Of a stretch of 64,000 nucleotides of DNA, positions 31,813-54,640 are shown piece after piece. The stretch lies in the NCBI GenBank assembly GCA_037893245.1, contig JBAIAA010000661.1:43501-107500 (forward strand), in the 5' to 3' direction. How positions within the stretch are numbered: the stretch's first letter is position 1; each line of letters begins with the position of its first letter. This DNA comes from Crossaster papposus. Its lineage: Eukaryota; Echinodermata; Asteroidea; Velatida; Solasteridae. The translations under genes and the position numbers were made by a program. A model generated the notes under the pieces. That model made no database searches and had not been told where the DNA came from. It saw only the letters and a list, made by a program, of their open reading frames with translations.

Positions 31813-31814
31813 AT

Positions 31815-32093
31815 ATGGACAAAAATCATGAAGACAAGCGACGTCTGTATAACAAGATTGTCCTATCGTTGTGGCGGCAGGGCCGTATATATGAAAGGCG
31901 GTTGCTATTATGGAATGTTCTTTGTAATGAAGAAACTTTACAGAAAAAGACGGCCATGATTGTGAGGAAACATAACTTCCAGGATGGAAAACAGAAGTCT
32001 ATATTTTTACATGCAGACGAAATACATCCTGCCCTCCAATCGCTAGACTTATCCATGCGCCTGAAGGAATATATTCAGTTTTGTAACCCCTAA
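31815..32093 (+). CDS. MEFFK/DKNHED family ORF, copy 1 (5'-truncated, frame reopened)
   Basis: 92 residues, MDKNHEDKRRLYNKIVLSLW..., ending in RLKEYIQFCNP. It lacks the ~34 N-terminal residues of the fuller copies because the spaced repeats lie directly upstream. It shares the family's 2-base deletion after VVRK/IVRK, but a TAA found in most copies reads AAA here (DGKQKS). A later 4-base deletion makes the net change six bases, so the C-terminal frame is regained. Unknown function; predicted helical and basic, with no recognised domain. Confidence 0.5.
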   Translation: MDKNHEDKRRLYNKIVLSLWRQGRIYERRLLLWNVLCNEETLQKKTAMIVRKHNFQDGKQKSIFLHADEIHPALQSLDLSMRLKEYIQFCNP

Positions 32094-32613
32094 TAGATAT
32101 ACACGAACGGTCCATTTTAGGCCCAACACTTTTTATCGGAAGAGATTAGAACTCGAGTGGCTGCACGAGCTAGTTTAAGTCAATGACTCACGCCCAGCTA
32201 CCCTACAGGTCCAAGCAAGTTTATCACACGTCTCTTTACTCAGTTCTGATTGGTCGATGAGGATTCTAGGTAAAATAATCAAATAATCAAAAATAATCAA
32301 ATAATCAAAAATAACTCGTCACCACATCACACAGTTTTGCACTAGACATCGAGCCAGAACAGTTTTACACTAGACATCGAGCCAAAACAGTTTTACACTA
32401 GACATCGAGCAAAAACAGTTTTACACTAGACATCGAGCCAGCTCCCGTGTGTTTTAAAATCACGAGTCTACTTTTAACCCAGAACTCAGCTACAGAATCG
32501 CTACTAAAAAAGGTAAGAAAATATAATTGTTTTGTTTACGTAAGTAGCTCAAAAGAATAATTGCTATGATATTAAAACTCTATCTATTATTTTATTTTAT
32601 TTGCTTTAGTATC

Positions 32614-33393
32614 ATGACGTTTCCAAGGCAAGTCCTCAAACTGACTTATATGAGGGAAGACGTCGATGAAGCCAATCGTCTCATCGACTCAAGCGGCAGT
32701 GGGTGGTGCAACAATTTCACCAATATCACCAACTCGTCGATGTGGCAAAAAGATTTATCATCGACGGTCGACATGAAGAAGCCTTGGAAGCCCTAAACAA
32801 CGAACCAAATGTAAATAATCCGCCACCACTCCCAACTTTAGAAGCCCAAGAAAATGATGAGGAAGTAGAAGAACAGCCCCAAATAAAGAAAAATACCCCG
32901 ACTCCCGAAGAAATGTATAACAAACTAAAAAGTACTTATAATATGCAACGACAGTTAAGTAATTGGGAGGATATTCTTTTACCAGGTAATGAACGACATT
33001 ACAATTTAAGGGATTTAGAACAATGCGTAAAAGAATGAGGTGAAAAGTATAAACGGGGGAAAACAGGGGTTTGTTTAGCGCGGCAAAGTTTGGGAACTGG
33101 TTAGAAATTTCATTTCAAACATTTCGGCGAGATAAAAAGGGTGAGGTATTTTTACCAAATTTTGATACATGGTTAGAACAAAATTGTGACATAAGAAAAC
33201 ATTGGGCTAAAATATTGAGGGAATTTTACAAACTGGTAAACGAATATCCCAAATTACTTAACTGCCGTCTACCCTTAACTTTTTTCAGAAAAATAAGAGA
33301 TTAATTAAGACGTATTTTAGTATGACCCCAGCATTAGGTAAAAGATGGAAACATTCTGCAGAGTGTATTTGTAATCACTGTGGACCTGTGTAA
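32614..33393 (+). pseudogene. MTFPRQ family gene, copy 1
   Basis: Corresponds to the 260-codon gene at 48142-48924. A one-base deletion near 32698 (GGCAGTGGG versus GGCGAGTGGG) shifts the frame after DSSG. The shared TGA codon is present, and one G fewer in the following G-run shifts the frame again before FSAAKFGNWLE. An ATG lies directly after a TTTGCTTTAG acceptor, with the matching donor AAAAAAGGTAAG near 32510. Inactive. Confidence 0.7.
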
Positions 33394-33406
33394 ACAAGTG
33401 TAATTT

Positions 33407-33541
33407 TAGACATGACATCATTTATAAAAAAGTCTATTTTAAGAAGGAGACTGGCAGTCTCCTTTTCTAAATATAGACGTGACATCATTTATAAAAAAGT
33501 CTATTTTGAGAAAGAGACTGACAGTCTCCTTTTCTAAATAT
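33407..33541. repeat. Tandem 67-bp repeat with hairpin
   Basis: Two copies of a unit starting TAGACATGACATCATTTATA, each carrying the palindrome GGAGACTGGCAGTCTCC (one copy slightly mutated). It lies just downstream of the MTFPRQ gene and is kept at the same place in the other two copies (about 44227-44362 and 48936-49072). The hairpin and following T-rich or AAAATA sequence resemble a structured 3' end; function unknown. Confidence 0.8.
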
Positions 33542-33832
33542 AAAAAACCTAAAGGGTACTGGCAGATTTTTAGAAGTTAATTTTAGTTATATAAAACTGT
33601 AATCAATGAAAATAAAATAAAATAGCACCCTCTGTTGATGGCGCTTTAAAAAAAATTTTTTTTTTAGAGTTTGTCATTCCTTGTTTTTTTTTGTTAACCC
33701 ATAGAGGGCGCTGTTTTTTAAGATTCTCGCAAGATAAATAAAACTAGTTTGTTTTGTGAGTTTTTTTTTTGTTAGACAAAATTGATTTTTTTAAGATTTG
33801 GTTTACATACGGCATATCCCTACTACTAAAGC

Positions 33833-34282
33833 CACAATGCTTATTATGGATGTGAACGCTGTGTGCAATGGGGCTCTTGGAACGATAAAGTTACATTTCC
33901 TCTGACTGACTCATGCCTACGCACTGATGAAAGCTGCAGTCAAGTGTCGGAGCATCATAGTGGAACAGATCTTTCTCTTTGTGTGAGTTATCTGTTGGCA
34001 TGGTCACTCAGTTTGTCCTTGATTCTATACATTTGGTTTACCTGGGGGTTACCAGGAGACTTGTATGGTTTTGAATGAAAGGTCCAGTTGCGACTAATTG
34101 CCGGTGGTAAAAGTGTTGCTGCAATATCAAACATGTTGCTTTCATTTCACTCGAATATTCCTCGTGAATTTGCAAGGAAATGTCGATCTCTCAATGAAAT
34201 AGACCGCTGGGAAGCCACCGAGTTCAGGCAGTTCCTCTTGTACAGTGCAATTGTTGCACTAAAAAAGCAATTTCCCAGATAA
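33833..34282 (+). pseudogene. Tnp2-like transposase fragment, copy 2
   Basis: Starts abruptly at AAAGCCACAATGCTTATTAT (the KSHNAYYGCERC region) and carries on through RTDES...EHH and RSLNEIDRWEATEFRQFLLY. It shares with copy 1 the two-base shift between GTDLSLC and ELSVGMV. The N-terminal two thirds are missing. Confidence 0.75.
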
Positions 34283-34479
34283 TCGTTACAGGCATTTTTT
34301 GCTTCTCTTTGTTAGTATCTTCTGCCTATCTAATACACTGTACATATATACTGTGTATCGCATTGCGATTTGCTAATGAACTTCTGCATATATTTGTTGA
34401 CCAATTTGGAGATATCTATGGTAAAAACATGCTTGTTTACAATGTTCATTCCGGTGAACACTGACACGACGTCATCAAT

Positions 34480-34689
34480 ATGGGGCTGTTGAAATATTTT
34501 CAGGTTCCATATTCAAGACTTGAGGAAATCAAACTTGAGCTGCGCTCACTGAAACGAACATCCAGGCGGTTTGAACCAAACAGCACCAACAAGTCTGTGG
34601 AACTTAGATTTGAAATGTTCCCACTCAAAACAATGGAAGACCTCAAATTTGAGGAGCAGCTTCAAGATGAGGATTTCGTGGGTCAGGTG
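34480..34689 (+). CDS. DUF4806-like gene, copy 2, first exon
   Basis: Reads as copy 1 up to DEDF and continues VGQVV, matching the DUF4806 pattern, then meets a good donor GGTG|GTAAGT at 34689/34690. The continuation exon was not found; the sequence that follows contains gypsy pol remnants. One codon shorter than copy 1 in the TMEDL-KFEEQL segment. Confidence 0.5.
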
Positions 34690-35256
34690 GTAAGTACATG
34701 TATTGTTATAACATGATTCTAATTTTCTTTTTTTGCAATACAAGTGACGTGCACCAATACCCATATTAGAAAGGAGTTGTTTACGTCTTACTCGTGAGTT
34801 GGACACTCCATTATATAGCTAGAGGGGGTGTTTTAAAAAGCATTAAGTGACAATGTAAATCGTTGGAAAATTTGACTTTTGAAGCGAAAAGAGATTTAAG
34901 AATGGGAATAAATATGCTTGGTTGGTATTGAACGTGTTGAAGACCGGTATCCAAATCCCAACCGGTCTTGAAAATAGTGTTAAATACCTTCCAAACATAT
35001 ATGTAATAATAATGGATAATTTTTATAGCACACCGGTATCTGCCAAAAATGACGCTCTTCTGCAAAATACAATCAAAACAAATCAGAAAAATCCACACAA
35101 ATTAAATTAAACCCAAGCCAACTGCGGATAATCTGCGAACCGAGTTGGTGGCAGGAAACTTTGCCAGAACCGAGCCAACACAGAAAGGGCAGCCCCAGAA
35201 AACGCAGCCCAAGAAGAAAAACCAGAAGAAGACGAACCCAAGCTACCACAGTTAGT

Positions 35257-35493
35257 GATTTTACGTATCGCATTTAGAAGGGAGTTAAGACAAAACCGAG
35301 GATAGATCACTACAACTGTTTGAAACCTTATTGTGGTGAGAATTTGCCGACTTGGTTGACATCTTCAAGTTCACACCTAGTACATCCAGAAAATGAGAAT
35401 GATGATTCTACCGAAGTTGTAACTGAAGAAAAGAGCAACAATGAAGCTAATATGTCGCAGGAGACTGGTGGAAGGAAAGACGAAGAAGAGTAG
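35257..35493 (+). pseudogene. Ty3/gypsy pol C-terminal tail, copy 1
   Basis: DFTYRI-stop-KGVKTKPR..DHYNCLKPYCGENLPTWLTSS is the post-integrase tail of Ty3/gypsy polyproteins (the YRIQKG...HYNRLKPY pattern), followed by an acidic Asn/Glu-rich C-terminus ending in EEE at 35493. One in-frame TAG. The matching region at 46069-46305 is open. Downstream, the LTR-like sequence seen in the other copy is missing after 35565. Confidence 0.7.
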
Positions 35494-35819
35494 TATAAGC
35501 TAAGGCGCACACACCCCAAAAATATAGGGCAGTGTGAACTGCGCATGCGCGCCAAAGGCGCCCATCGTTAACGATAAGTTATCGGTTATTTTTTTACACT
35601 CGAGAGATACAAGGCAAATATGTACTACCCTCTTGACCCGAGTTACTAGGATACGACATGTTTTGTGTGCCTCACGGGTACATGCGACCTGTTTTGTTTA
35701 GCCTAACCGCGTTTGTTTAATCTTTTATCGGACAATACAAGACAAATATAGAGATTGGTATAAGATGGCCCTGCGACACACGATTTTAAAATTAAAAAAT
35801 TGTTCACCAATCTTACATT

Positions 35820-36197
35820 ATGGAGTTTTTCAAAATCGTTGAAGCCATTGAAAAATGTCGGGGAAATGTCCAGTCGCTGGTTGACTGTCTGTAGCTATGC
35901 TGGTTAAGACTTATTCCTATGGACAAAAATCATGAAGACCTGCGACGTCTGTACAACAAGATTGTCCTATCGTTGTGGCGGCAGGGCCGTATATATGAAA
36001 GGCAGTTGCTATTATGGAATGTTCCTTGTAATGAAGAAACTTTACAGAAAAAGACGGCCATGGTTGTGAGGAAACATAACTTCCAGGATGGATAACAGGA
36101 GTCTATATTTTTACATGCAGACGAAATCCATCCTGCCCTCCAATCGCTAGACTTACCCATGCGCCTGAAGGAATATATTCAGTTTTGTAACCCCTAA
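35820..36197 (+). pseudogene. MEFFK/DKNHED family, copy 2
   Basis: Full-length relative to the intact copy at 49392 but with a TAG in VDCL-stop-LCW and the common frameshift giving DG-stop after HNFQ. It is followed by the conserved tail (FCNP then TAATAGATATACACGAACGG). Confidence 0.7.
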
Positions 36198-36364
36198 TAG
36201 ATATACACGAACGGTCCATTTTAGGCCCAACACTTTTTATCGGAAGAGATTAGAACTCGAGTGGCTGCACGAACTAGTTTAAGTCAATGACTCACGCCCA
36301 GCTACCCTACAGGATCAAGCAAGTTTCCCACACATCTCTTTACTCAGTTCTGATTGGTCGTTGA

Positions 36365-36625
36365 GGATTCCAGGTAAAATAATCAAGGAGCGCATAGTGC
36401 AGAGGGTGTCCTGCATACAACGACAACTTCCCTGCAAAGGCTGTCCGGTTCGGCCGGAGTCGCCGCCCCACAGCGCCACGAACAATGACTGGAACAGAGG
36501 TGGAGTGGATGCAACAGCAGGCCTGCACTGACCGCAAAGCTGAAAGAAGTCGCAAAGACACACTGCATCCACTGGAATTTGGCGTGACCGTCCGAATGGT
36601 CACTCTTTATATTTTGTTTGGCATA
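36365..36625 (+). pseudogene. Internally deleted gene-set remnant (short derivative 1)
   Basis: The first ~85 bases match the start of the C-x2-C gene (RILGKIIKERIVQRVS...LPCKGC). The sequence then jumps to the 3' part of the C2H2 gene's Pro-rich region (GSAGVAAPQ...HCIHW). The jump omits the end of one gene, the intergenic region and most of the next, about 1.5 kb relative to 40033-41862. A sister derivative lies at 38145-38402. Confidence 0.75.
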
Positions 36626-37597: not shown

Positions 37598-37975
37598 ATG
37601 GAGTTTTTCAAAATCGTTGAAGCCATTGAAAAACGTAGGGGAAATGTCCAGTCGCTGGTTGACTGTCTGCAGCTATGCTGGTTAAGACTTAGTCCTATGG
37701 ACAAAAATCATGAAGACCTGCGACGTCTGTACAACAAGATTGTCCTATCGTTGTGGCGGCAGGGCCGTATATATGAAAGGCAGTTGCTATTATGGAATGT
37801 TCCTTGTAATGAAGAAACTTTACAAAAAAAGACGGCCATGGTTGTGAGGAAACATAACTTCCAGGATGGATAACAGAAGTCTATATTTTTACATGCAGAT
37901 GAAATACATCCTGCCCTCCAATCGCTAGACTTACCCATGCGCCTGAAGGAATATATTCAGTTTTGTAACCCCTAA
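37598..37975 (+). pseudogene. MEFFK/DKNHED family, copy 3
   Basis: Open for 91 codons (MEFFKIVEAIEKRRGNVQSL...VVRKHNFQDG) and then stopped by the TAA created by the shared frameshift; the C-terminal third (LHADEIHPALQSLDL...FCNP) remains recognisable to 37975. Preceded by the leader with the TATA-like sequence. Confidence 0.7.
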
Positions 37976-38144
37976 TAGATATACACGAACGGCCCATTTT
38001 AGGCCCAACCCTTTTTATCGGAAGAGATTAGAACTCGAGTGGCTGCACGAGCTAGTTTAAGTCAATGACTCACGCCCAGCTACCCTACAGGTCCAAGCAA
38101 GTTTCCCACACGTCTCTTTACTCAGTTCTGATTGGTCAATGAGG

Positions 38145-38402
38145 ATTCTAGGTAAAATAATCAAGGAGCGCATAGTGCAGAGGGTGTCCTGCATACAACG
38201 AAAACTTCCCTGCAAAGGCTGTCCGGTTCGGCCGGAGTCGCCGCCCCACAGCGCCACGAACAACGACTGGAACAGAGGTGGAGTGGATGCAACAGCAGGC
38301 CCGCACTGACCGCAAAGCTGAAAGAAGTCGCAAAGACACACTGCATCCACTGGAATTTGGCGTGACCGTCCGAATGGTCACTCTTTATATTTTGTTTGGC
38401 AT
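38145..38402 (+). pseudogene. Internally deleted gene-set remnant (short derivative 2)
   Basis: Same junction as at 36365-36625 (LPCKGC directly joined to the GGTTCGGCCGGAGTCGCC part), so the two derivatives descend from one deletion event and were then duplicated. It runs directly into the conserved tail at GGCATATAAACAGTATTCATTG. Confidence 0.75.
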
Positions 38403-38959: not shown

Positions 38960-39337
38960 ATGGAGTTTTTCAAAATCGATTAAGCCATTGAAAAACGTCC
39001 GGGAAATGTCCAGTCGCTGGTTGACTGTCTGCAGCTATGCTGGTTAAGACTTAGTCCTATGGACAAAAATCATTAAGACCTGCGACGTCTGTACAACAAG
39101 ATTGTCCTATCGTTGTGGCGGCAGGGCCGTATATATGGAAGGCGGTTGCTATTATGGAATGTTCCTTGTAATGAAGAAACTTTACAGAAAAAGACGGCCA
39201 TGGTTGTGAGGAAACATAACTTCCAGGATGGATAACAGGAGTCTATATTTTTACATGCAGACGAAATCCATCCTGCCCTCCAATCGCTAGACTTACCAAT
39301 GCGCCTGAAGGAATATATTCAGTTTTGTAACCCCTAA
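38960..39337 (+). pseudogene. MEFFK/DKNHED family, copy 4
   Basis: Two early stops (IVEA replaced by ID-stop, and DKNH-stop) plus the common downstream frameshift. Both early stops recur in copy 9 (51899-52276), so the two copies and the PC4-like genes after them come from one duplicated block. Confidence 0.75.
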
Positions 39338-39617: not shown

Positions 39618-39995
39618 ATGTTGCCCGACAAACCCAAGGCTGCCATGGATGAGCTGGGGACTGCTAAAGACGACACATCGGTAACACCAGCCGTGCCGAT
39701 AAAGCATCTGAAGGGGAAAATGCCCAGCAGAAAGTGCAGATTTGAACCCGATCCTGACCAGGAGGAGAACAAGAAAAAGGCCGTCAAGTTTCCCATCGGA
39801 GGTGAGTGTTACGTTACCGTGAAGAGTTTCAAGGGCCGTCCTTACGTCAATATCAGAGAATACTACTGGAACGAATTCCACAGTAAGATGCTGGTGGGGA
39901 ATAAGGGTCTGAACCTCCCTGCAGAACAGTGGCTCGAGTTGATTAGTCACGTCACCGACATCAATAACGCGCTGAATAAAATAACTGACTCTTAA
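39618..39995 (+). CDS. PC4/SUB1-like ssDNA-binding protein, copy 1
   Basis: 125 residues from the first in-frame ATG (a TGA lies just upstream of the frame). An acidic/Pro-rich N-terminus (residues ~1-50) with basic clusters precedes a PC4 domain at about residues 62-118: KKKAVKFPIGGECYVTVKSFKGRPYVNIREYY, then KMLVGNKGLNLPAEQWLELI. The F-x-IGG, VTV-x-x-FKGR-x-x-V-x-IREYY and QW positions fit the beta-sheet and helix of the PC4 (transcriptional coactivator p15/SUB1) family, whose members bind ssDNA or melted dsDNA and act in transcription and repair. It is single-exon, intact, and encodes the same protein as the copy at 52557, in a neighbourhood where nearly every other gene is broken. Host SUB1 is similar in domain but normally has a Ser-rich N-terminus and introns. 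It is probably an element-encoded or captured version. Confidence 0.85.
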   Translation: MLPDKPKAAMDELGTAKDDTSVTPAVPIKHLKGKMPSRKCRFEPDPDQEENKKKAVKFPIGGECYVTVKSFKGRPYVNIREYYWNEFHSKMLVGNKGLNLPAEQWLELISHVTDINNALNKITDS

Positions 39996-40032: not shown

Positions 40033-40494
40033 ATGCTTTGTAGATCACGAGTCATACTAGTCCTCAAGAGGATTCTAGGTAAAATAATCAAGGAGCGCAT
40101 AGTGCAGAGGGTTTCCCGCATACAACGACAACTTCCCTGCAAAGGCTGTCTGGAGCACTGGGCCAGTCAAGACGACCACGCCTGTCTGTTTTTCGGCGAC
40201 ACGCCAGAGTATCACGTGGAGGACTTTGTTACCGATCATTATGAACACGTAGCGTCATCCATAGACGCGAATGAGATCATCGATATTTTCAACGCCGTAA
40301 GTCGACTTTTGGTCGTCGTGGGCTTTACTTACGCGGGACTGACCAAAGAAACTCTGAACGGTATAACTCAAGAAATCCTGCTGGGATGGGAAAACGAAAC
40401 CGAGGATATCGCACAAACATTGAATTCGTATTCATTCCCCAACGTCACTAGACTCTTAGATTTTGTAATGGCCCAAGTAAAAGGATCGGTGTAA
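40033..40494 (+). CDS. 153-aa protein with C-x2-C...SQ..H-x-C motif, intact copy
   Basis: Starts 37 bases after the PC4-like stop; the ATG overlaps a CRE-like TGACGTCA (40026-40033). The N-terminus is basic and helical (KRILGKIIKERIVQRVSRIQRQ). It is followed by a putative zinc-binding motif, CKGCLEHWASQDDHACLFF (C-x2-C, then SQ-x2-H-x-C), and a helical C-terminus (DEFVTDHYEHV-like, ANEIIDIFNAVSRLL, NVTRLLDFVMAQVK). I do not recognise a named family with certainty; similar motifs occur in invertebrate hypothetical proteins associated with repeats. Intact here, frameshifted at 52972 and truncated at 50285. Function unknown. Confidence 0.6.
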   Translation: MLCRSRVILVLKRILGKIIKERIVQRVSRIQRQLPCKGCLEHWASQDDHACLFFGDTPEYHVEDFVTDHYEHVASSIDANEIIDIFNAVSRLLVVVGFTYAGLTKETLNGITQEILLGWENETEDIAQTLNSYSFPNVTRLLDFVMAQVKGSV

Positions 40495-40741
40495 CTAATA
40501 TATACGCCTTAGGTCGTTTGTTAATTGTATTACTTTGTTCAAATAATAATCTGCCGTCTGCCTTTTGGCACAGGGGTGCCAATTCGTATTCATTCCCAAC
40601 GTCACTAGACTCTTAGATTTTGTAATGGCCCAAATAAAAGGATCGGTGTAACTAATATATACGCCTTTCGTCGTTTGTTAATTGTATTACTTTGTTCAAA
40701 TAATAATCTGCCGTCTGCCTTTTGGCACAGGGGTGCCAATA
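40426..40741. repeat. ~155-bp tandem duplication of the gene's 3' end
   Basis: The segment from AATTCGTATTCATTCCC through GGCACAGGGGTGCCAAT occurs twice here (junction about 40578) and once in the sister copy at 53360-53520. It includes the last codons of the C-x2-C gene. Both repeats hold the GGCACAGGGGTGCC palindrome, followed after the second by AATAAA (poly-A signal, ~40738). Confidence 0.85.
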
Positions 40742-40853
40742 AACCTTCTGTATGCGCTATGCACGTATTTACTGTACGTACGTGAATGTACACATAAGTA
40801 CATGTACATTTACAGTTTACGCCAGCTGCAGTAGAAAGACACAGAAAAGAAAG

Positions 40854-41288
40854 ATGATATTTAGTTGTGTATTTTGCAAGGGCCTATTTCGTAATTGGAG
40901 GGACTTGACCGAACACACTCAGGAAATGCATCGAGAAAGCAGGACCTGGAAATGTCGTGCCTGCAGGTTCGAGACCTCCAGTCAAGGAGATTTTGATCGG
41001 CACCGCCGAAGAATGCACCCGGAGACTGGTGATAACCGACGCCGGGTCATCAGGGTGTATTCTGCGGGACGCATACCCAGCCATAGTAGTCCCAGACGGG
41101 CCACAGGCAGAAGGGAAGAGCGGAGAGAGAGGGGACCACCAAATAAGGTAGAGCTACGGGAGGAGGGTAGTCGCTGCTTCCCCACGGTGTTAGTGGAGAA
41201 GCACATCGTTGGCCTCATCGACACCCCACGACAACAGGTGGTGGATGAAAGATTCCCCCAAATGTATCCATCCCCTGCAGCACTTTAA
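40854..41288 (+). CDS. Two-finger C2H2 protein, copy 1
   Basis: I favour the ATG at 40854 (MIFSCVFCKG...); an in-frame ATG at 40752 would add 34 atypical residues. Two fingers follow at once: CVFC-x12-H-x4-H and CRAC-x12-H-x4-H, then an Arg-rich stretch (RRATGRREERRERG) and VLVEKHIVGLIDTPRQQ. The frame ends in TAA after PSPAAL. In the copy at 50.7 kb that codon is GAA, and the same frame carries on into the Pro-rich segment at 41290-41862. The ancestral protein was therefore about 370 residues with a DNA-binding N-terminus. Likely element-encoded; target unknown. Confidence 0.65.
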   Translation: MIFSCVFCKGLFRNWRDLTEHTQEMHRESRTWKCRACRFETSSQGDFDRHRRRMHPETGDNRRRVIRVYSAGRIPSHSSPRRATGRREERRERGPPNKVELREEGSRCFPTVLVEKHIVGLIDTPRQQVVDERFPQMYPSPAAL

Positions 41289-41865
41289 GAGGAGACCCCC
41301 TTTAAGCTGGGTCCAGTCTTGACCAGCGATGAGCTGATGACATTGAGGGAGAGCCTGGCTACCCCGTCCTCTATCATGTCTATCTCAGTCAGCAGCCAGC
41401 CCCACAGTCATGACAGCGCAGCAGAAGCGAAAAGTGCCATCCCCCCTTCCTCCAGATGAGCCCATCGAGGTACCTGCTACCCCTGCGTCACCGATGGCAA
41501 AGTGGCTAGACGAGGTAGACCACCAACTAGACGACCTACTGCCACCCCCACCCCCAGCTGAGAGGTCGCCGGTAAAACCCCAAAAAAAACAGCCAGAGAA
41601 AGAAATTCAGAGCTCCTCTTCGGCCCCTGCCTCGGCCCTTGCAGCTGAGACCGAATTTCCGGCCATATACCAGCTACACCAGCCCCACCCGCAGCTTGCG
41701 GCCTACCCTGCACTAACCCCCAGTTCGGCCGGAGTCGCCGCCCCACAGTGCCACGAACAACGGCTGGAACAGAGGTGGAGTGGATGCAACAGCAGGCCCG
41801 CACTAACCGCAAAGCTAAAAGAAGTCGCAAAGACACACTGCATCCACTGGAGTCTGGCGTGACCG
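41289..41865 (+). pseudogene. Pro-rich C-terminal half of the C2H2 protein (detached)
   Basis: Continues the C2H2 frame (EETPFKLGPVLTSDELMTLRESLATPSS...) until an extra C in a C-run near 41447 shifts it. Then MAKWLDEVDHQLDDLLPPPPPAERSPVK...AAETEF...AYPALTPSSAGVAAP and a C-terminal HEQRLEQRW...KLKEVAKTHCIHWSLA. The segment is Pro/Ser/Ala-rich and mostly disordered. From 41410 it can still be read as a 150-residue frame, but that is probably not the original start. Confidence 0.6.
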
Positions 41866-43260: not shown

Positions 43261-43430
43261 CCCGTGTGTTTTAAAATCACGAGTCTACTTTTAACCCAGA
43301 ACTCAGCTACAGAATCGCTACTAAAAAAGGTAAGAAAATATAATTGTTTTGTTTACGTGAGTAGCTCAAAAGAATAATTGCTATGATATTAAAACTCTAT
43401 CTATTATTTTATTTTATTTGCTTTAGTATC

Positions 43431-44213: not shown

Positions 44214-44649
44214 ACAAGTGTAATTTTAGACATGACATCATTTATAAAAAAGTCTATTTTGAGAAGGAGATTGGCAGTCTCCTTTTCTAAATATAGACGC
44301 GACATCATTTATAAAAAAAGTCTATTTTGAGAAGGAGACTGGCAGTCTCCTTTTCCAAAATATAAAAAACCTAAAGGGTACTGGCAGATTTTTAGAAGTT
44401 AATTTTAGTTATATAAAACTGTAATCAATGAAAATAAAATAAAATAGCACCCTCTGTTGATGGCACTTTAAAAAAAAAAAATTTGTTTAGAGTTTGTCAA
44501 TCATTTTTTGTTGTTGTTAACCCATAGAGAGGGCGCTGTTTTTTAAGATTCTCGCAAGATAAATAAAACAATTTTTTTTTGTGAGTTTTTTTTTTGTTAG
44601 ACAAAATTGAGTTTTTTAAGATTTGGTTTACATACGGCATATCCCTACT

Positions 44650-45101
44650 ACTAAAGCCACAATGCTTATTATGGATGTGAACGCTGTGTGCAATGGGGCT
44701 CTTGGAACGATAAAGTTACATTTCCTCTGACTGACTCATGCCTACGCACTGATGAAAGATGCAGTCAAATGTCGGAGCATCATAGTGGAACAGATCTTTC
44801 TCTTTGTGTGATGAGTTATCTGTTGGCATGGTCACTCAATTTGTCCTTGATTCTATACATTTGGTTTACCTGGGGGTTACCAGGAGACTTTGGATGAAAG
44901 GTCCAGTTGCGACTAATTGCCGGTGGTAAAAGTGTTGCTGCAATATCAAACATGTTGCTTTCATTTCACTTGAATATTCCTCGTGAATTTGCAAGGAAAT
45001 GTCGATCTCTCAATGAAATAGACCGCTGGGAAGCCACCGAGTTCAGGCAGTTCCTCTTGTACAGTGCAATTGTTGCACTAAAAAAGCAATTTCCCAGATA
45101 A
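44650..45101 (+). pseudogene. Tnp2-like transposase fragment, copy 3
   Basis: Begins at the same base as copy 2 (AAAGCCACAATGCTT), so copies 2 and 3 share a breakpoint. It carries the common frame disruption at GTDLSLC with an extra GAT/ATG-type triplet, plus a short deletion near 44890. Confidence 0.75.
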
Positions 45102-45297
45102 TCGTTACAGGCATTATTTGCTTCTCTTTGTTAGTATCTTCTGCCTATCTAATACACTGTACATATACTGTGTATCGCATTGCGATTATGCTAATGAACT
45201 TCTGCATATGTTTGTTGACCAATTTAGAGATATCTACGGTAAAAACATGCTTGTTTACAATGTTCATTCCGGTGAACACTGACACGACGTCATCAAT

Positions 45298-45507
45298 ATG
45301 GGGCTGTTGAAATATTTTCAGGTTCCATATTCAAGACTTGAGGAAATCAAACTTGAGCTGCGCTCACTGAAACGAACATCCAGGCGGTTGGAACCAAACA
45401 GCACCAACAAGCCTGTGGAACTTAGATTTGAAATGTTCCCACTCAAAACAATGGAAGACCTCAAATCTGAGGAGCAGCTTCAAGATGAGGATTTCGTGGG
45501 TCAGGTG
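45298..45507 (+). CDS. DUF4806-like gene, copy 3, first exon
   Basis: GLLKYFQVPYSRLEEIKLELRSLKR...ELRFEMFPLKTMEDLKSEEQLQDEDFVGQVV followed by donor GGTG|GTAAGT at 45507/45508. As in copy 2 no continuation exon is evident, and gypsy sequence lies downstream. A truncated gene rather than a working one. Confidence 0.5.
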
Positions 45508-46068
45508 GTAAGTACATGTATTGTTATAACATGATTCTATTTTTTTTTTTTTTTTGCAATACAAGTGACGTGCGCCAATACCCATATTAGAAAGGAGTTG
45601 TTTACGTCTTACTCGTGAGTTGGACACTCCATTATATAGCTAGAGGGGGTGTTTTAAAAAGCATTAAGTGACAATGTAAATCGTTGGAAAATTTGACTTT
45701 TGAAGCGAAAAGAGATTTAAGAATGGGAATAAATATGCTTGGTTGGTATTGAACGTGTTGAAGACCGGTATCCAAATCCCAACCGGTCTTGAAAATAGTG
45801 TTAAATACCTTCCAAACATATATGTAATAATAATGGATAATTTTTATAGCACACCGGTATCTGCCAAAAATGACGCTCTGCTGCAAAATACAATCAAAAC
45901 AAATCAGAAAAATCAACACAAATTAAATTAAACCCAAGCCAACTGCGGATAATCTGCGAACCGAGTTGGTGGCAGGAAACTTCGCCAGAACCGAGCCAAC
46001 ACAGAAAGGGCAGCCCAAGAAGACAAACCGGAAGAAGACGAACCCAAGCTACCACAGTTAGGCCTAGT

Positions 46069-46305
46069 GATTTTACGTATTGCATTCAGAAGGGAGTTAA
46101 GACAAAGCCAAGGAAAGATCACTACAACCGTTTGAAACCTTATTGTGGTGAGAATTTGCCGACTTGGTTGACATCTTCAAATTCACACCCGGTACATCCA
46201 GAAAATGAGAATGATGATTCTACCGAAGTTGTAACTGAAGAAAAGAGCAACAATGAAGCTAATATGTCGCAGGAGACTGGTGGAAGGGAAGACGAAGAAG
46301 AGTAG
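46069..46305 (+). pseudogene. Ty3/gypsy pol C-terminal tail, copy 2
   Basis: DFTYCIQKGVKTKPRKDHYNRLKPYCGENLPTWLTSS and an acidic tail ending in DEEE, open throughout its 78 codons. It is followed by a polypurine-like AAGGGGTAGA and a candidate LTR at 46490. No upstream pol domains are present, so the element is 5'-truncated. Confidence 0.75.
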
Positions 46306-46489
46306 TATAAGCTAAGGCACACACACCCCAAAAATGTAGGGCAGTGTGAACTGCGCATGCGCGCCAAAGGCGCCCATCGTTTGCCCAACATTTTTTAGGT
46401 TGCGTTTGCCCCATATTGTTTTAATTTGTTTTTAATAATTTTATTATTTATTTATTTTGTATTTTCTTGTATTTTTCTAAGGGGTAGAT

Positions 46490-46988
46490 TGTTGGCAGTT
46501 TATTTTGTACGTAGTGGTGTGCGATGGCGAGCCACGGAGAGGTGAGCCGCTCGGCCCACGGCAGTGTTCGGGACGTCCGATGGGCCGATAGCGAGCCATG
46601 GAGTGGGGAGCCGTTCGGCCCACGGCAGTGTTTGGGAGGCCCGAAGGGCCGATAGCCTGAAGGGCTGATACGCAGATGGAAACATGATGATGGTGCATCA
46701 TGTTGAGCAGGTCAGGATTGTCTCACGACAGTGATAAAAAAAGCATTGGAGGTGCGGGAGTGATTTCTTAAAATCACGAAACGGTTCGGGGTAATTTTTT
46801 TTAAATCACGAAGCGCCGAGGTCCGTACCACGCAGCACAAACGAACGTTTACGTCTCGTTTGTATTTTCACGAAGTGAAAACCAAGCGTTTGATTCCAAG
46901 ACGTTTGACAAGACGTCGTGGAAGAACGAAAAGTGTAAAATATTTTAAAATTTTATATTTTGCCCTTTGTACCTATTGCCGCCGTGTC
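46490..46988. mobile_element. Candidate 3' LTR of the gypsy fragment
   Basis: Starts TGTTGGCAG directly after a polypurine-like tract, 185 bp past the pol stop. It contains two copies of a ~70-bp GC-rich unit (GAGCC..GGAG, CGGCCCACGGCAGTGTT, GGGCCGATAGC; 46520-46660) and AAATCACGAA words. It may end at ...GTGTCA (46988), but there is no second LTR to compare, so the right boundary is a guess. Confidence 0.45.
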
Positions 46989-47372
46989 ATTGGAGGTGTA
47001 TATGGTGAATCGGTTATCTCACGTACTGGAGCGATACAAGACAAATATGAACTACCCTTTTGACCCGAGTTACTAGGATACGACCTGTTTTGTGTGCCTA
47101 TAGCTAGGTAAGTGCGATCTAGCCTAACCGTGTTTGTTTAATCTGTTTTCTCGGCCCTCGAGCCATAACAGACAAATATTAACTACCCTTCTGACCCGAG
47201 CGCCTACAGATACAGGAGCAAGTTTATGGGTTATTTCTACATTCGAGAGCTACAAGGCAAATATGAACTACCCTTTTGACCCGAGTAGGTGAATTATGTC
47301 ATGCTGTCGAGTCATTGTAGATTAATTATGTCATCGGTTATTTTTTACACTCGAGAGATACAAGGCAAATAT
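46985..47372. repeat. Spaced direct repeats, second array
   Basis: Same arrangement as 31430-31812 (motif at about 47036, 47166, 47250, 47361), nearly identical in sequence, leading into the next truncated MEFFK/DKNHED copy. Confidence 0.8.
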
Positions 47373-47649
47373 GGACAAAAATCATGAAGACAAGCAACGT
47401 CTGTACAACAAGATTGTCCTATCGTTGTGGCGGCAGGGCCGTATATATGGAAGGCGGTTGCTATTATGGAATGTTCCTTGTAATGAAGAAACTTTACAGA
47501 AAAAGACGGCCATGGTTGTGAGGAAACATAACTTCCAGGATGGATAACAGAAGTCTATATTTTTACATGCAGACGAAATACATCCTGCCCTCCAATCGCT
47601 AGACTTATCCATGCGCCTGAAGGAATATATTCAGTTTTGTAACCCCTAA
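47371..47649 (+). pseudogene. MEFFK/DKNHED family, copy 6
   Basis: 5'-truncated exactly like copy 1 (starts MDKNHEDKQRLYNKIVL), but it keeps the TAA after HNFQDG that copy 1 lost. Confidence 0.7.
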
Positions 47650-48040
47650 TAGATATACACGAACGGTCCATTTTAGGCCCAACACTTTTTATCGGAAGAG
47701 ATTAGAACTCGAGTGGCTGCACGAGCTAGTTTAAGTCAATGACTCACGCCCAGCTACCCTACAGGTCCAAGCAAGTTTCCCACACGTCTCTTTACTCAGT
47801 TCTGATTGGTCGATGAGGATTCTAGGTAAAATAATCAAATAATCAAAAATAATCAAATAATCAAAAATAACTCGTCACCACATCACACAGTTTTGCACTA
47901 GACATCGAGCCAGAACAGTTTTACACTAGACATCGAGCCAAAACAGTTTTACACTAGACATCGAGCCAGCTCCCGTGTGTTTTAAAATCACGAGTCTACT
48001 TTTAACCCAGAACTCAGCTACAGAATCGCTACTAAAAAAG

Positions 48041-48137
48041 GTAAGAAAATATAATTGTTTTGTTTACGTGAGTAGCTCAAAAGAATAATTGCTATGATAT
48101 TAAAACTCTATCTATTATTTTATTTTATTTGCTTTAG
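48041..48137 (+). other. Candidate 5'UTR intron of the MTFPRQ gene
   Basis: ACTAAAAAAG|GTAAGAAAAT at the left and TTATTTGCTTTAG|TATC at the right give a 97-bp GT-AG intron that ends four bases before the ATG. The same boundaries occur in the copies at about 32512-32610 and 43330-43427. This supports a eukaryotic, spliced transcript. Confidence 0.6.
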
Positions 48138-48141
48138 TATC

Positions 48142-48924
48142 ATGACGTTTCCAAGGCAAGTCCTCAAACTGACTTATATGAGGGAAGACGTCGATGAAGC
48201 CAATCGTCTCATCGACTCAAGCGGCGAGTGGGTGGTGCAACAATTTCACCAATATCACCAACTCGTCGATGTGGCAAAAAGATTTATCATCGACGGTCGA
48301 CATGAAGAAGCCTTGGAAGCCCTAAACAACGAACCAAATGTAAATAATCCGCCACCACTCCCAACTTTAGAAGCCCAAGAAAATGATGAGGAAGTAGAAG
48401 AACAGCCCCAAATAAAGAAAAATACCCCGACTCCCGAAGAAATGTATAACAAACTAAAAAGTACTTATAATATGCAACGACAGTTAAGTAATTGGGAGGA
48501 TATTCTTTTACCAGGTAATGAACGACATTACAATTTAAGGGATTTAGAACAATGCGTAAAAGAATGAGGTGAAAAGTATAAACGGGGGGAAAACAGGGGT
48601 TTGTTTAGCGCGGCAAAGTTTGGGAACTGGTTAGAAATTTCATTTCAAACATTTCGGCGAGATAAAAAGGGTGAGGTATTTTTACCAAATTTTGATACAT
48701 GGTTAGAACAAAATTGTGACATAAGAAAACATTGGGCTAAAATATTGAGGGAATTTTACAAACTGGTAAACGAATATCCCAAATTACTTAACTGCCGTCT
48801 ACCCTTAACTTTTTTCAGAAAAAATAAGAGATTAATTAAGACGTATTTTAGTATCACCCCAGCATTAGGTAAAAGATGGAAACACTCTGCAGAGTGTATT
48901 TGTAATCACTGTGGACCTGTGTAA
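48142..48924 (+). CDS. MTFPRQ family gene, best copy (one in-frame TGA)
   Basis: 260 codons with a single interruption, TGA at codon 142 (48565-48567); the frame is continuous on both sides. The N-terminal half (MTFPRQVLKLTYMREDVDEANRL...) is helical, with an acidic/Pro-rich linker (NNPPPLPTLEAQ, EEVEEQPQIKKNTPTPEEMYNKL). The C-terminal half (FSAAKFGNWLEISFQTFRRDKKGEVFLPNFDTWLEQN..., HWAKILREFYKLVNEYPKLLNCRLP, RLIKTYFSITPALGKRWKHSAECICNHCGPV) is basic and helical and ends with a C-x-C-x2-C motif. I do not recognise the family. The TGA is present in all three copies; either the gene died before duplication or readthrough is used. Confidence 0.55.
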
Positions 48925-49391
48925 ACAAGTGTAATTTTAGACATGACATCATTTATAAAAAAGTCTATTTTGAGAAGGAGACTGGCATTCTCCTTTTCTA
49001 AATATAGACGTGACATCATTTATAAAAAAGTCTATTTTGAGAAGGAGACTGGCAGTCTCCTTTTCTAAATATAAAAAACCTAAAGGGTACTGGCAGATTT
49101 TTAGAAGTTAATTTTAGTTATATAAAACTGTAATCAATAAAAATAAAATAAAATAGCACCCTCTGTTAATGGCGCTTTAAAAAAAAAAAAAATGTACTAC
49201 CCTCTTGACCCGAGTTACTAGGATACGACATGTTTTGTGTGCCTCACGGGTACGTGCGACCTGTTTTGTTTATCCTAACCGCGTTTGTTTAATCTGTTAT
49301 CGGACAATACAAGACAAATATAGAGATTGGTATAAGATGGCCCTGCGACACACGATTTTAAAATTAAAAAATTGTTCACCAATCTTACATC

Positions 49392-49775
49392 ATGGAGTTT
49401 TTCAAAATCGTTGAAGCCATTGAAAAATGTCGGGGAAATGTCCAGTCGCTGGTTGACTGTCTGCAGCTATGCTGGTTAAGACTTAGTCCTATGGACAAAA
49501 ATCATGAAGACCTGCGACGTCTGTACAACAAGATTGTCCTATCGTTGTGGCGGCAGGGCCGTATACATGAAAGGCGGTTGCTATTATGGAATGTTCCTTG
49601 TAATGAAGAAACTTTACAGAAAAAGGCGGCCATGGTTGTGAGGAGACAAATAACTTCCAGGATGGATAACAGAAGTCTGTACGATTTTTTACATGCAGAC
49701 GAAATCCATCCTGCCCTGCAATCGCTCGAATTACCCATGCGCCTGAAGGAATATATTCACTTTTGCAACCCCTAG
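49392..49775 (+). CDS. MEFFK/DKNHED family, intact copy
   Basis: The only copy with a complete 127-residue frame: MEFFKIVEAIEKCRGNVQSLVDCLQLCWLRLSP, LRRLYNKIVLSLWRQGRIHERRLLLWN, ETLQKKAAMVVRRQITSRMDNRSLYDFLHADEIHPALQSLELPMRLKEYIHFCNP. Helical and rich in Leu/Arg, with no recognised domain. Compared with the others it has two more bases at AGGAGACAAATAA and four more at CTGTACGATTTTTT, which identifies the shared 2- and 4-base deletions in the rest. Probably the ancestral coding state. Confidence 0.65.
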   Translation: MEFFKIVEAIEKCRGNVQSLVDCLQLCWLRLSPMDKNHEDLRRLYNKIVLSLWRQGRIHERRLLLWNVPCNEETLQKKAAMVVRRQITSRMDNRSLYDFLHADEIHPALQSLELPMRLKEYIHFCNP

Positions 49776-49842
49776 TAGATAAACACGAACGGCAACACTC
49801 TTTATCAGAAGAGATTAGATCTGATGGTTAAGACTTAGTCCT

Positions 49843-50121
49843 ATGGACACAAATCATGAAGACCTGCGACGTCTGTACAACAAGATTGTCCTATCGTTGT
49901 GGCGGCAGGGCCGTATATATGAAAGGCGGTTGCTATTATGGAATGTTCCTTGTAATGAAGAAACTTTACAGAAAAAGACGGCCATGGTTGTGAGGAAACA
50001 TAACTTCCAGGATGGATAACAGGAGTCTATATTTTTACATGCAGACGAAATCCATCCTGCCCCCCAATCGCTAGACTTACCAATGCGCCTGAAGGAATAT
50101 ATTCAGTTTTGTAACCCCTAA
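49843..50121 (+). pseudogene. MEFFK/DKNHED family, copy 8 (5'-truncated)
   Basis: Begins MDTNHEDLRRLYNKIVL directly after the intact copy (a local duplication), carries the common frameshift and TAA, and leads into a C-x2-C gene fragment. Confidence 0.7.
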
Positions 50122-50284
50122 TAGATATACACGAACGGTCCATTTTAGGCCCAACACTTTTTATAGGAAGAGATTCGAACTCGAGTGGCTGCACGAGCTA
50201 GTTTAAGTCAATGACTCACGCCCAGCTACCCTACAGGTCCAAGCAAGTTTCCCACACGTCTCTTTACTCAGTTCTGATTGGTCG

Positions 50285-50535
50285 ATGAGGATTCTAGGTA
50301 AAATAATCAAGGAGCGAATAGTGCAGAGGGTGTCCTGCATACAACGACAACTTCCCTGCAAAGGCTGTCTGGAGCACTGGGCCAGCCAAGATGACCACGC
50401 CTGTCTGTTTTTCGGCGACACGCCAGAGTATCACGTGGAAGACTTTGTTACCGAACATTATGAACACGTAGCGTCATCCATAGACGCGAATGAGATCATC
50501 GATATTTTCAACGCCGTAAGTCGACTTTTGGTCCC
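50285..50535 (+). pseudogene. C-x2-C gene, 3'-truncated copy
   Basis: Matches 40069-40310 (RILGKIIKERIVQRVS...CKGCLEHWASQDDHACLFF...FNAVSRLLV), then jumps at TTTTGGTC|CCAGACGGGCCAC into the middle of the C2H2 gene, losing about 780 bp. No PC4-like gene precedes this copy. Confidence 0.75.
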
Positions 50536-51305
50536 AGACGGGCCACATGCTGAAGGGAAGAGCGGAGAGAGAGGGGACCACCAAAGAAGGTAGAGCTACG
50601 GGAGGAAGGAAGTTGCCGCTTCTCCACGGTGTTAGTGGAGAAGCACATCGTTGGCCTCATCGACACCCCACGACAACAGGTGGTGGATGAAAGATTCCTC
50701 TAAATTCATCCATCCCCTGCAGCACTTGAAGAGGAGACCCCCTTTAAGCCGGGCCCAGTCTTGACCAGCAATGAGCTGATGACATTGAGGGAGAGCCTAG
50801 CTACCCACATTCCTCTATCTTGTCTATCTCAGTCAGCAGCCAGCCCCACAGTCATGACAGCGCAGCAGAAGCGAAAAGTGCCATCCCCCTTCCTCCAGAT
50901 GAGCCCATCGAGGTACCCGCTACCCCTGCGTCACCGATGGCAAAGTGGCTAGACGAGGTGGACCACCAACTAAACGACCTACTGCCACCCCCACCCCCAG
51001 CTGAGAGGTCGCCGGTAAAACCCCCCAAAAAACAGCCAGAGAAAGAAATTCAGAGCTCCTCTTCGGCCCCTGCCTCGGCCCTTGCAGCCGAGACCGAATT
51101 TCTGGCCATATACCAGCTACCCCAGCCCCACCCGCAGCTTGCGGCCTATCCTGCACTGACCCCCGGTTCGGCCGGAGTCGCCGCCCCACAGCGCCACGAA
51201 CAACGGCTGGAACAGAGGTGGAGTGGATGCAACAGCAGGCCCGCACTGACCGCAAAGCTGAAAGAAGTCGCAAAGACACACTGCATCCACTGGAGTTTGG
51301 CGTGA
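50535..51305 (+). pseudogene. C2H2 gene, 5'-deleted copy with unbroken Pro-rich half
   Basis: Both zinc fingers are missing. After IDTPRQQVVDERF a TAA interrupts, but the later TAA of the other copies is GAA here (PSPAALEEETPFKPGPVLTSNELM). From 50820 a continuous 161-residue frame reads MSISVSSQPHSHD...KWLDEVDHQLNDLLPPPPPAERSPVKPPKKQPEKE...AYPALTPGSAGVAAPQ...KTHCIHWSLA. This copy fixes the correct frame of the Pro-rich segment in the others. Confidence 0.65.
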
Positions 51306-51898: not shown

Positions 51899-52276
51899 AT
51901 GGAGTTTTTCAAAATCGATTAAGCCATTGAAAAATGTCGGGGAAATGTCCAGTCGCTGGTTGACTGTCTGCAGCTATGCTGGTTAAGACTTAGTCCTATG
52001 GACAAAAATCATTAAGACCTGCGACGTCTGTACAACAAGATTGTCCTATCGTTGTGGCGGCAGGGCCGTATATATGAAAGGCGGTTGCTATTATGGAATG
52101 TTCCTTGTAATGAAGAAACTTTACAGAAAAAGACGGCCATGGTTGTGAGGAAACATAACTTCCAGGATGGATAACAGGAGTCTATATTTTTACATGCAGA
52201 CGAAATCCATCCTGCCCTCCAATCGCTAGACTTACCAATGCGCCTGAAGGAATATATTCAGTTTTGTAACCCCTAA
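51899..52276 (+). pseudogene. MEFFK/DKNHED family, copy 9
   Basis: Carries the same two early stops as copy 4 (38960), showing it belongs to a duplicated block that extends through the following PC4-like gene. Confidence 0.75.
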
Positions 52277-52556: not shown

Positions 52557-52934
52557 ATGTTGCCCGACAAACCCAAGGCTGCCATGGATGAGCTGGGGAC
52601 TGCTAAAGACGACACATCGGTAACACCAGCCGTGCCGATAAAGCATCTGAAGGGGAAAATGCCCAGCAGAAAGTGCAGATTTGAACCCGATCCTGACCAG
52701 GAGGAGAACAAGAAAAAGGCCGTCAAGTTTCCCATCGGAGGTGAGTGTTACGTTACCGTGAAGAGTTTCAAGGGCCGTCCTTACGTCAATATCAGAGAAT
52801 ACTACTGGAACGAATTCCACAGTAAGATGCTGGTGGGGAATAAGGGTCTGAACCTCCCTGCAGAACAGTGGCTCGAGTTGATTAGTCACGTCACCGACAT
52901 CAATAACGCGCTGAATAAAATAACTGACTCTTAA
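52557..52934 (+). CDS. PC4/SUB1-like protein, copy 2
   Basis: Encodes exactly the same 125 residues as 39618-39995, and the flanking DNA (CRE-like TGACGTCA at 52449-52456, C-x2-C gene 38 bases downstream) is almost unchanged. PC4 domain as described for copy 1 (FPIGG, FKGR, IREYY, QWLELI). Confidence 0.85.
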   Translation: MLPDKPKAAMDELGTAKDDTSVTPAVPIKHLKGKMPSRKCRFEPDPDQEENKKKAVKFPIGGECYVTVKSFKGRPYVNIREYYWNEFHSKMLVGNKGLNLPAEQWLELISHVTDINNALNKITDS

Positions 52935-52971
52935 CTGTTACCTTTCTGTTTATGATCCAGACGGTGACGTC

Positions 52972-53432
52972 ATGCTTTGTAGATCACGAGTCATACTAGT
53001 CCTCAAGAGGATTCTAGGTAAAATAATTAAGGAGCGCATAGTGCAGAGGGTGTACCGCATACAACGACAACTTCCCTGCAAAGGCTGTCTGGAGCACTGG
53101 GCCAGCCAAGATGACCACGCCTGTCTGTTTTTCGGCGACACGCCAGAGTATCACCTGGAGGACTTTGTTACCGAACATTATGAACACGTAGCGTCATCCA
53201 TAGACGCGAATGAGATCATCGATATTTTCAACGCCGTAAGTCGACTTTTGGTCGTCGAGGGCTTTACTTACGCGGGACTGACCAAAGAAACTCTGAACGG
53301 TATAACTCAAGAAATCCTGCTGGATGGGAAAACGAAACCGAGGATATCGCACAAACATTGAATTCGTATTCATTCCCCAACGTCACTAGACTCTTAGATT
53401 TTGTAATGGCCCAAGTAAAAGGATCGGTGTAA
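52972..53432 (+). pseudogene. C-x2-C gene, frameshifted copy
   Basis: Same as 40033-40494 with a few replacements until a one-base deletion near 53322 (CTGCTGGATGGG versus CTGCTGGGATGGG) shifts the frame; the original end (TLNSYSFPN...MAQVKGSV) remains in the next frame to 53432. CxxC and SQ..H.C residues are all retained. Confidence 0.75.
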
Positions 53433-53634
53433 CTAATATATACGCCTTTCGTCGTTTGTTAATTGTATTACTTTGTTCAAATAATAATCTGCCGTCTGCC
53501 TTTTGGCACAGGGGTGCCAATAAACCTTCTGTGTGCGCTATGCACGTATTTACTGTACGTACGTGAATGTACACATAAGTACATGTACATTTACGGTTTA
53601 CGCCAGCTTCAGTAGAAAGACACAGAAGAGAAAG

Positions 53635-54069
53635 ATGATATTTAGTTGTGTATTTTGCAAGGGCCTATTTCGTAATTGGAGGGACTTGACCGAACACACT
53701 CAGGAAATGCATCGAGAAAGCAGGACCTGGAAATGTCGTGCCTGCAGGTTCGAGAACTCCAATCAAGGAGATTTTGATCGGCACCGCCGAAGAATGCACC
53801 CGGAGACTGGTGATAACCGACGCCGGGTCATCAGGGCGTATTCTGCGGGACGCATACCCAGCCATAGTAGTCCCAGACGGGCCACAGGCAGAAGGGAAGA
53901 GCGGAGAGAGAGGGGACCACCAAAGAAGGTAGAGCTACGGGAGGAGGGTAGTCGCTGCTTCCCCACGGTGTTAGTGGAGAAGCACATCGTTGGCCTCATC
54001 GACACCCCACGACAACAGATGGTGGATGAAAGATTCCCCCAAATTTATCCATCCCCTGCAGCACTTTAA
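53635..54069 (+). CDS. Two-finger C2H2 protein, copy 2
   Basis: Same two fingers as copy 1 with an Asn change (RFENSNQGDF), the Arg-rich stretch, and the TAA after PSPAAL. The frame continues past TAA to KGP..TSDELMTLRE...ASPMAK, where a TGG (Trp) has become TGA (54283-54285). Confidence 0.65.
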   Translation: MIFSCVFCKGLFRNWRDLTEHTQEMHRESRTWKCRACRFENSNQGDFDRHRRRMHPETGDNRRRVIRAYSAGRIPSHSSPRRATGRREERRERGPPKKVELREEGSRCFPTVLVEKHIVGLIDTPRQQMVDERFPQIYPSPAAL

Positions 54070-54640
54070 GAGGAGACCCCCTTTAAGCCGGGTCCAGTCT
54101 TGACCAGCGATGAGCTGATGACATTGAGGGAGAGCCTGGCTACCCCGTCCTCTATCATGTCTATCTCAGTCAGCAGCCAGCCCCACAGTCATGACAGCGC
54201 AGCAGAAGCGAAAAGTGCCATCCCCCTTCCTCCAGATGAGCCCATCGAGGTACCTGCTACCCCTGCGTCACCAATGGCAAAGTGACTAGACGAGGTGGAC
54301 CACCAACTAGACGACCTACTGCCACCCCCACCCCCAGCTGAGAGGTCGCCGGTAAAACCCAAAACCAAAAACAGCCAGAGAAAGAAATTCAGAGCTCCTT
54401 TTCGGCCGAGACCGAATTTCCGGCCATATACCAGCTACACCAGCCCCACCCGCAGCTTGCGGCCTACCCTGCACTGACCCCCGGTTCGGCCGGAGTCACC
54501 GCCCCACAGCGCCACGAACAATGGCTGGAACAGAGGTGGAGTGGATGCAACAGCAGGCCAGCACTGACCGCAAAGCTGAAAGAAGTCGCAAAGACACACT
54601 GCATCCACTGGAGTTTGGCGTGACCGTCCGAATGGTCACT
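54070..54640 (+). pseudogene. Pro-rich C-terminal half, copy 3
   Basis: The continuation of the C2H2 frame, broken by TGA at 54283-54285, then by a change at AAACCCAAAACCAAAAACAG and a ~30-bp loss near 54403 (the SSSAPASALAAE region). The GGAGTC(G/A)CCGCCCCACAGCGCC and HCIHW parts are present. Confidence 0.65.

Follow-up and report, generated by a model that had tools for sequence, protein, structure and literature searches.

The probable remains of a Maverick/Polinton left end in a tandem gene array of the sea star Crossaster papposus

Pieces of mobile elements amplified head to tail at a single locus are known as tandem repeats derived from transposable elements, and the locus described here is compared with these and with Maverick/Polinton elements, animal relatives of which are also called adintoviruses. 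For vertebrate Mavericks, one published account (PMC8097293) gives (AGT)2//(ACT)2 ends, 6-bp duplications, and a size; the Polintons of the sea star Crossaster papposus agree with it in all three. These sea star elements have a type-B polymerase, an rve integrase with a chromodomain, an A32/IVa2-like ATPase, and inverted repeats. The Stylophora coral adintovirus (StCAV) is likewise a Polinton-type element of a marine invertebrate (PMC11071308). We analyzed 64,000 nucleotides of the C. papposus genome (the window; C661:43501-107500, in a genome of 1.02 Gb in 1841 contigs, designated by C-numbers) containing a gene array that differs from such elements in holding left-arm and inverted-repeat sequence only, with two left termini. 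It resembles transposon-derived tandem repeats in its head-to-tail amplification, but differs from them as a multigene fusion of a Polinton left arm and another gene family, present in few copies. The array very probably represents the remains of one Maverick/Polinton insertion, with a decayed left end repeated in tandem and joined to parts of two further repeats.

Between 31.8 and 54.7 kb of the window, nine copies of a gene termed MEFFK alternate with two PC4 open reading frames (ORFs), three larger ORFs for a C-x2-C protein (CxxC), C2H2 and proline-rich (Pro-rich) ORFs, and three copies of a gene termed MTFPRQ, all on the plus strand. The largest DNA repeat family of the window has nine members; identity is 97-100% for eight of them and 63% for the ninth. 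A preliminary description of the window had read these genes as five families recurring in a conserved order in many copies; the ORFs are located as it described and the units do recur in order, but eight of the nine MEFFK copies are broken.

Two Polintons elsewhere in the genome were read end to end in pieces, one of 17.0 kb (C362:973065-990103) and one of 16.4 kb (C263:1817765-1834151), the former with ~650 bp extra in the polymerase region. Both have terminal inverted repeats of ~0.9 kb with AGTAGT...ACTACT at both ends, and perfect 6-bp target duplications flank each (AACATA for C362, TCCGGT for C263; two of two full elements with both ends). The type-B polymerase of C263 matches DNA_pol_B_2 (7.6e-15; 55.2 bits, cut-off 25.8), with protein priming predicted at most. 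In C362, the integrase matches rve (3.9e-14) and Chromo (9.7e-9), both above their cut-offs, and the packaging ATPase matches Pox_A32 (2e-7; 31.2 bits, cut-off 22.8) and Adeno_IVa2 (1.1e-4; 21.6 bits, cut-off 21); its cysteine protease candidate falls under the cut-off for Peptidase_C5 (0.0043; 17.2 bits, cut-off 21.3). From their position, we tentatively take ORFs of 443 and 247 aa to be the double jelly-roll major capsid protein and the penton; these candidates had no Pfam or NCBIfam match, and the 443-aa ORF also had no PDB sequence match. Where C362 and C263 are collinear, they agree at 99.5-100% (99.98% over 9.2 kb), and this near-identity suggests recent movement. Intact elements would work as other Polintons do, with integrase insertion generating 6-bp duplications and with self-encoded replication.

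The first ~3 kb of these Polintons comprise MEFFK, a PC4 gene with a WW domain (WW-PC4), and CxxC, in the same order as in the array, and the matches between the array and the C362 pieces (blastn) are to left-arm and inverted-repeat DNA. Among 46 MEFFK matches genome-wide, 19 lie in arrays (nine on C661 and ten on C1070). All 11 full-length, stop-free copies outside both arrays adjoin WW-PC4 and CxxC, as compared by eye, and ten of these have a capsid-candidate match within a few kb, the 11th lying at a contig start. For CxxC, a listed capsid-candidate match lies within 6 kb at 44 of 66 places and within 20 kb at 57 of 66. The 66 were taken from 80 CxxC matches (11 array rows and three small pieces left out); the capsid-candidate list scored 95 of 169 candidates, and the proximity counts use 92 of its 97 rows, with each split copy counted once. 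MEFFK, PC4, and CxxC are thus identified by homology as left-arm genes of Maverick/Polinton elements, accessory ones whose role is suggested by domains only. The proposal that the array holds a transposon or virus-like module holds for these three families, but not for C2H2/Pro-rich and MTFPRQ, which belong to separate families. The preliminary description had seen no polymerase, integrase, or capsid gene in the window, and in the array the C362 pieces matched no Polinton core gene (blastn).

The product of the C362 PC4 gene is 210 aa long and combines a WW domain (1.6e-6) with a PC4 domain (1.5e-14); against solved structures it matches PC4 (1pcf, 5.4e-12) and the WW domains of PRP40 (1o6w, 7.6e-9). 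In the two window copies (39618-39995, 125 aa, Pfam PC4 9.2e-14; and 52557-52934), Polinton homology sets in partway through the WW domain (residue 60 of 210) and contains one TGA, after which the open frame starts. CxxC follows each copy, at 40033-40494 (153 aa; 89.5% to the C362 copy over 152 codons) and at 52972-53361 (with a frameshift near its end). In other units PC4 is missing. Set against C362 and the undeleted unit at 39.5-40.1 kb, the 18-bp sequence ATTGGTCGATGAGGATTC (32249-32266) matches on its left the stretch behind MEFFK and on its right the start of CxxC; the undeleted unit has PC4 between the two. It occurs exactly at 32249, 43094, 47805, and 50277 and with one mismatch at 36353 and 38131. 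ATTGGTCGATGAGGATTC is a deletion junction: PC4 was lost, with the same junction in six units. The sequence that the preliminary description had found common to its two branches is real, and is this junction. Genome-wide there are eight exact occurrences, all on C661 and C1070, and 38 with up to two mismatches, against eight for a reversed control.

Genuine Polinton left termini are present at two positions in the window, 35489 and 46301, with their first 65 bases alike at 63 of 65. The first, beginning AGTAGTATAAGC (35489-35553), is 74% identical over those 65 bases to the C362 inverted repeat; the second continues into an inverted-repeat remnant (46301-46974; 72% over 46570-46974). Both are preceded by one target repeat ending AAGAAG, at 35254-35488 (ending GACGAAGAAG; 91% to L050:253-480) and at 46060-46300 (89% to L050). 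A related target on C48 (L050:253-480, 89-91%) continues past AAGAAG without an element, and homology to a C2H2/Pro-rich gene begins there ~260 bp beyond the uninterrupted target point. In the window, Polinton homology ends at 40710 and that of the C2H2 gene begins at 40729. This switch, together with the arrangement on C48, makes loss of the rest of the element the most likely way in which the left arm became joined to the neighboring gene. Such a history would begin with insertion of a Polinton ~260 bp upstream of the C2H2/Pro-rich gene; a deletion that started directly after CxxC and took away the right end and the ~260 bp would then have joined the left arm to that gene. A further deletion took PC4 out of some units, giving the one junction seen in six. 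MTFPRQ units have the ATTGGTCGATGAGGATTC junction, so MTFPRQ would have joined a unit already deleted, and unequal exchange would have multiplied the units. Read in this way, the cassette becomes a readable history of Polinton insertion, right-half loss, fusion to a neighbor gene, and tandem growth that differs between contigs. Seven occurrences of AGTAGTAT (plus strand) were considered as unit boundaries and rejected: five continue differently inside the conserved tail, and these five are not Polinton ends.

One stretch of the second array, on C1070, is 99.9% identical to the window over 3.4 kb (overlapping pieces L006 and L025) and another is 99.6% identical over 2.4 kb, and a copy of MTFPRQ lies ~25-26 kb beyond the array on both contigs. 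Unit order and number differ between them (nine versus ten MEFFK, two versus three PC4), as would be expected from unequal exchange. C1070 is probably the other haplotype of the C661 array. The ordered units at high identity and the related array on a second contig could instead mark an unrecognised mobile cassette moving as a single five-gene unit, as the preliminary description supposed. This is very unlikely, given that C1070 behaves as the other haplotype, that the three component families lie apart at the other places compared, and that most array units have no Polinton terminus, with no Polinton right end found beside the target. The order MEFFK-PC4-CxxC-C2H2-Pro was present on C661 and C1070 only, among the matches listed genome-wide. 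That it is found at one locus is one of the two outcomes that the preliminary description had itself named as speaking against its proposal. Complete copies elsewhere, which it had thought worth seeking, do exist as full Polintons with terminal repeats and core genes, but the components fall into three separate families. Near-identical repeats are hard to assemble, and the differing unit order of C661 and C1070 might also reflect tandem copies made from collapsed or chimeric reads. We regard such an assembly artefact as extremely unlikely, as the units differ by substitutions and deletions while some agree at 99.6-99.9% between contigs. C1070:177619-178231 contains two partial MEFFK copies (residues 1-100) in direct tandem, without the shared deletions described below and 95-97% identical to the one MEFFK that is intact in the window.

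Decay and loss of mobility are probable for the array, which is most likely inert. The sole intact MEFFK of the window is at 49392-49775 (127 aa). The other eight have identical frame-shifting deletions of 2 and 4 nt; five are full length with one to three in-frame stops (35820-36197, two; 37598-37975, one; 38960-39337, three; 42561-42938, one; 51899-52276, three), and three lack the 5' part (31809-32090, residues 32-127; 47371-47646; 49825-50118). In a tree of 20 rows, 15 array copies (nine from the window, six from C1070) separate from three intact and two palindromic Polinton copies with support of 100/99. Variable sites among ten disabled copies are spread over codon positions 1, 2, and 3 as 12/11/11, and fixed differences between array and Polinton MEFFK as 12/4/14; the two distributions do not differ significantly (Fisher p 0.31). 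Searched against profiles, MEFFK, CxxC, and MTFPRQ gave no match or weak matches below curated cut-offs, and MEFFK against solved structures gave a single chance match (E 0.25). Structures predicted from window sequences alone were poor (mean predicted local distance difference test score 45.9 for MEFFK, 48.7 for CxxC). Scans of viral contigs with the capsid-candidate ORF, WW-PC4, MTFPRQ, and MEFFK found no relative.

Several observations weigh against derivation from one decayed insertion. Neither ACTACTAAGAAG, for the right terminus and flank of the founding insertion, nor the continuation of L050 has a match in the window, so that the right end and flank which would show the 6-bp duplication of the founding insertion are absent. 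The uninterrupted C48 target is a paralogue at ~90%, not an allele, and no source was identified for the conserved tail that precedes the next MEFFK (41903-42465, delimited by DNA repeat comparison). Pieces of C1070 other than the two closest match the window best at 97.2-98.8%, so that alleles are likely, not certain. Finally, the ratio of nonsynonymous to synonymous substitution rates (dN/dS) for window MEFFK, PC4, and CxxC ORFs against C362, C375, and C1182 is 0.27-0.35, which could mean continued use. Such values would also follow if the bulk of the divergence came about in live elements; together with the codon-position pattern above, we tentatively read them as divergence there followed by decay in the array. 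The same ratio is 0.27-0.29 for C2H2 against C48 and 0.55 for the MTFPRQ copy at 48094 against C18; between C362 and C375 the MEFFK value is 0.90 and the PC4 value 0.14, both from a small number of changes. These comparisons left out the rows window-C658, window-C263, and C362-C658.

Continued use would fit a domesticated cluster, in which the host keeps the WW-less PC4, CxxC, and C2H2 proteins of the array, or small RNAs from it, to restrain live Polintons. Both window PC4 ORFs are open and identical over 375 nt (the second at 52557-52931), with dN/dS to the Polinton PC4 of 0.32-0.34; CxxC at 40033 and MEFFK at 49392 are open as well, and the near-identity of C362 and C263 suggests recently active Polintons to restrain. 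We nevertheless consider domestication quite unlikely: eight of the nine MEFFK copies are broken, substitutions inside the disabled MEFFK clade show no codon-position bias, the WW domain is mostly gone from both PC4 copies, and recent duplication explains the identity of the copies.

In the genome's second, diverged Polinton lineage, WW-PC4 is again followed by CxxC, mostly at 44-49% and 34-38% identity, respectively. In the literature searched, which mostly excluded subscription papers, we found no account of Polintons with a gene that fuses WW and PC4. Judging from domains and the conserved pairing, the WW-PC4 protein of intact Polintons probably acts early in the cycle by binding both single-stranded DNA and host transcription machinery, and CxxC is probably its partner. 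An accessory module of WW-PC4 and CxxC kept in a second lineage would be a possible early switch. It is quite unlikely that the pair forms a conserved Polinton module for regulation or replication that has so far gone undescribed and that the host, in addition, has kept the WW-less array PC4 as a competitor restraining the live elements.

The C2H2/Pro-rich gene pieces lie behind the Polinton left arm at 40729-41878 (ORFs 40752-41288 and 41410-41862; L050 homology from 40729) and at 53533-54639. The two ORFs also co-occur elsewhere and at some sites seem to form a single frame of 367-401 aa, and none of 12 C2H2 places, all outside the arrays, lies within 20 kb of a listed capsid-candidate match. 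We regard this pair as a repeat family separate from Polintons. In PC4-less units, CxxC and Pro-rich fragments occur at 36364-36584 and 38142-38362, each following a broken MEFFK, and a truncated CxxC ORF (50285-50593) is followed by fragments of C2H2 (50533-50727) and Pro-rich (50886-51302).

MTFPRQ has at least 155 matches genome-wide (150 of 242 candidates scored), of which 107 entered the proximity test (array, weak, and unlisted rows left out). None of the 107 lies within 6 kb of a listed capsid-candidate match and one does within 20 kb, and membership in the same Polintons was rejected on this test. At least 78 of the 107 places have a 203-aa ORF containing a hydrophobic stretch no more than 2.6 kb away; the list of this ORF scored 150 of 726 candidates, and 83 of the 150 rows were used, chosen as their contigs carry MTFPRQ. 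MTFPRQ is a high-copy element of its own. It may represent another Polinton-type lineage: the element end ACTACT is found at two unrelated flanks, and an ORF upstream of MTFPRQ is weakly like the C362 247-aa ORF (E 0.013, single comparison); no left end or core gene of this element was seen. Described earlier as a spliced gene, it need not be spliced, as the copy on C18 is a single open frame of 279 codons; the window copy at 48094 has an in-frame stop after codon 157. In the window, 3' parts of the element ending CCCTACTACT occupy 32509-33827 (89% to L049 over 32509-33531) and 43326-44652, and the third copy lies at 48037-49178 (ORF 48094-48567). Extended to 49200, this copy ends in AATAAA and an A run instead of ACTACT, like a reverse-transcribed copy. 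At C147:94682-97392 are five tandem MTFPRQ-like copies, three of them stop-free in the matched part.

The array is ordinary in kind, and the points of note are the WW-PC4/CxxC module, the left ends that form palindromes, and the link to a satellite; we claim no novelty for the Polinton-satellite link or for palindromic derivatives. The MTFPRQ element closes with 18 bases, AGTAGTAGGGATATGCCG (minus strand), that lie at 33810-33827 and 44635-44652 and at L049:3193-3210. With up to one mismatch they occur ~534,000 times genome-wide (290,839 + 243,016), against none for a reversed control; the 100 places listed are all at the start of C10 (C10:8-4408), mostly at 43-bp spacing. A 43-bp satellite has sequence in common with a mobile-element end; were every copy in tandem, it would perhaps account for 2% of the genome. 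Palindromic Polinton derivatives at C343:2730342-2741317 and C251:1244455-1252103 (L037-L040) consist of two facing left ends with MEFFK, with arms of ~5.5 kb (98-99.7%) and ~3.8 kb (95-98.7%), respectively. At C343, the flanking DNA is mirrored too, in place of a target duplication, and an assembly artefact is possible. Match coordinates of WW-PC4 on C53, C354, C428, C566, and C678 also look mirrored. The palindromic copies and the satellite with its element-end motif suggest that Polinton or mobile-element ends feed other genomic repeats.

In and around the array, a repeat without a name has three copies (30575-31417, 33828-34670, and 44653-45488), the second and third starting directly after the ACTACT end of an MTFPRQ copy. 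Between the first of these and the array, short blastn matches to the C362 inverted repeat mark remnants of its inner part (31437-31813). Tandem arrays with a unit of ~470-480 bp, tRNA-like by impression, lie at 13768-14829 and 18391-20911; no tRNA or Rfam match was found within the 64-kb window. Elsewhere in the window are a THAP-domain ORF (571-1218, minus strand), a reverse transcriptase fragment (29538-30023), and a DDE_Tnp_4 transposase that shares one frame with an array of 14-bp repeats (2590-3729).

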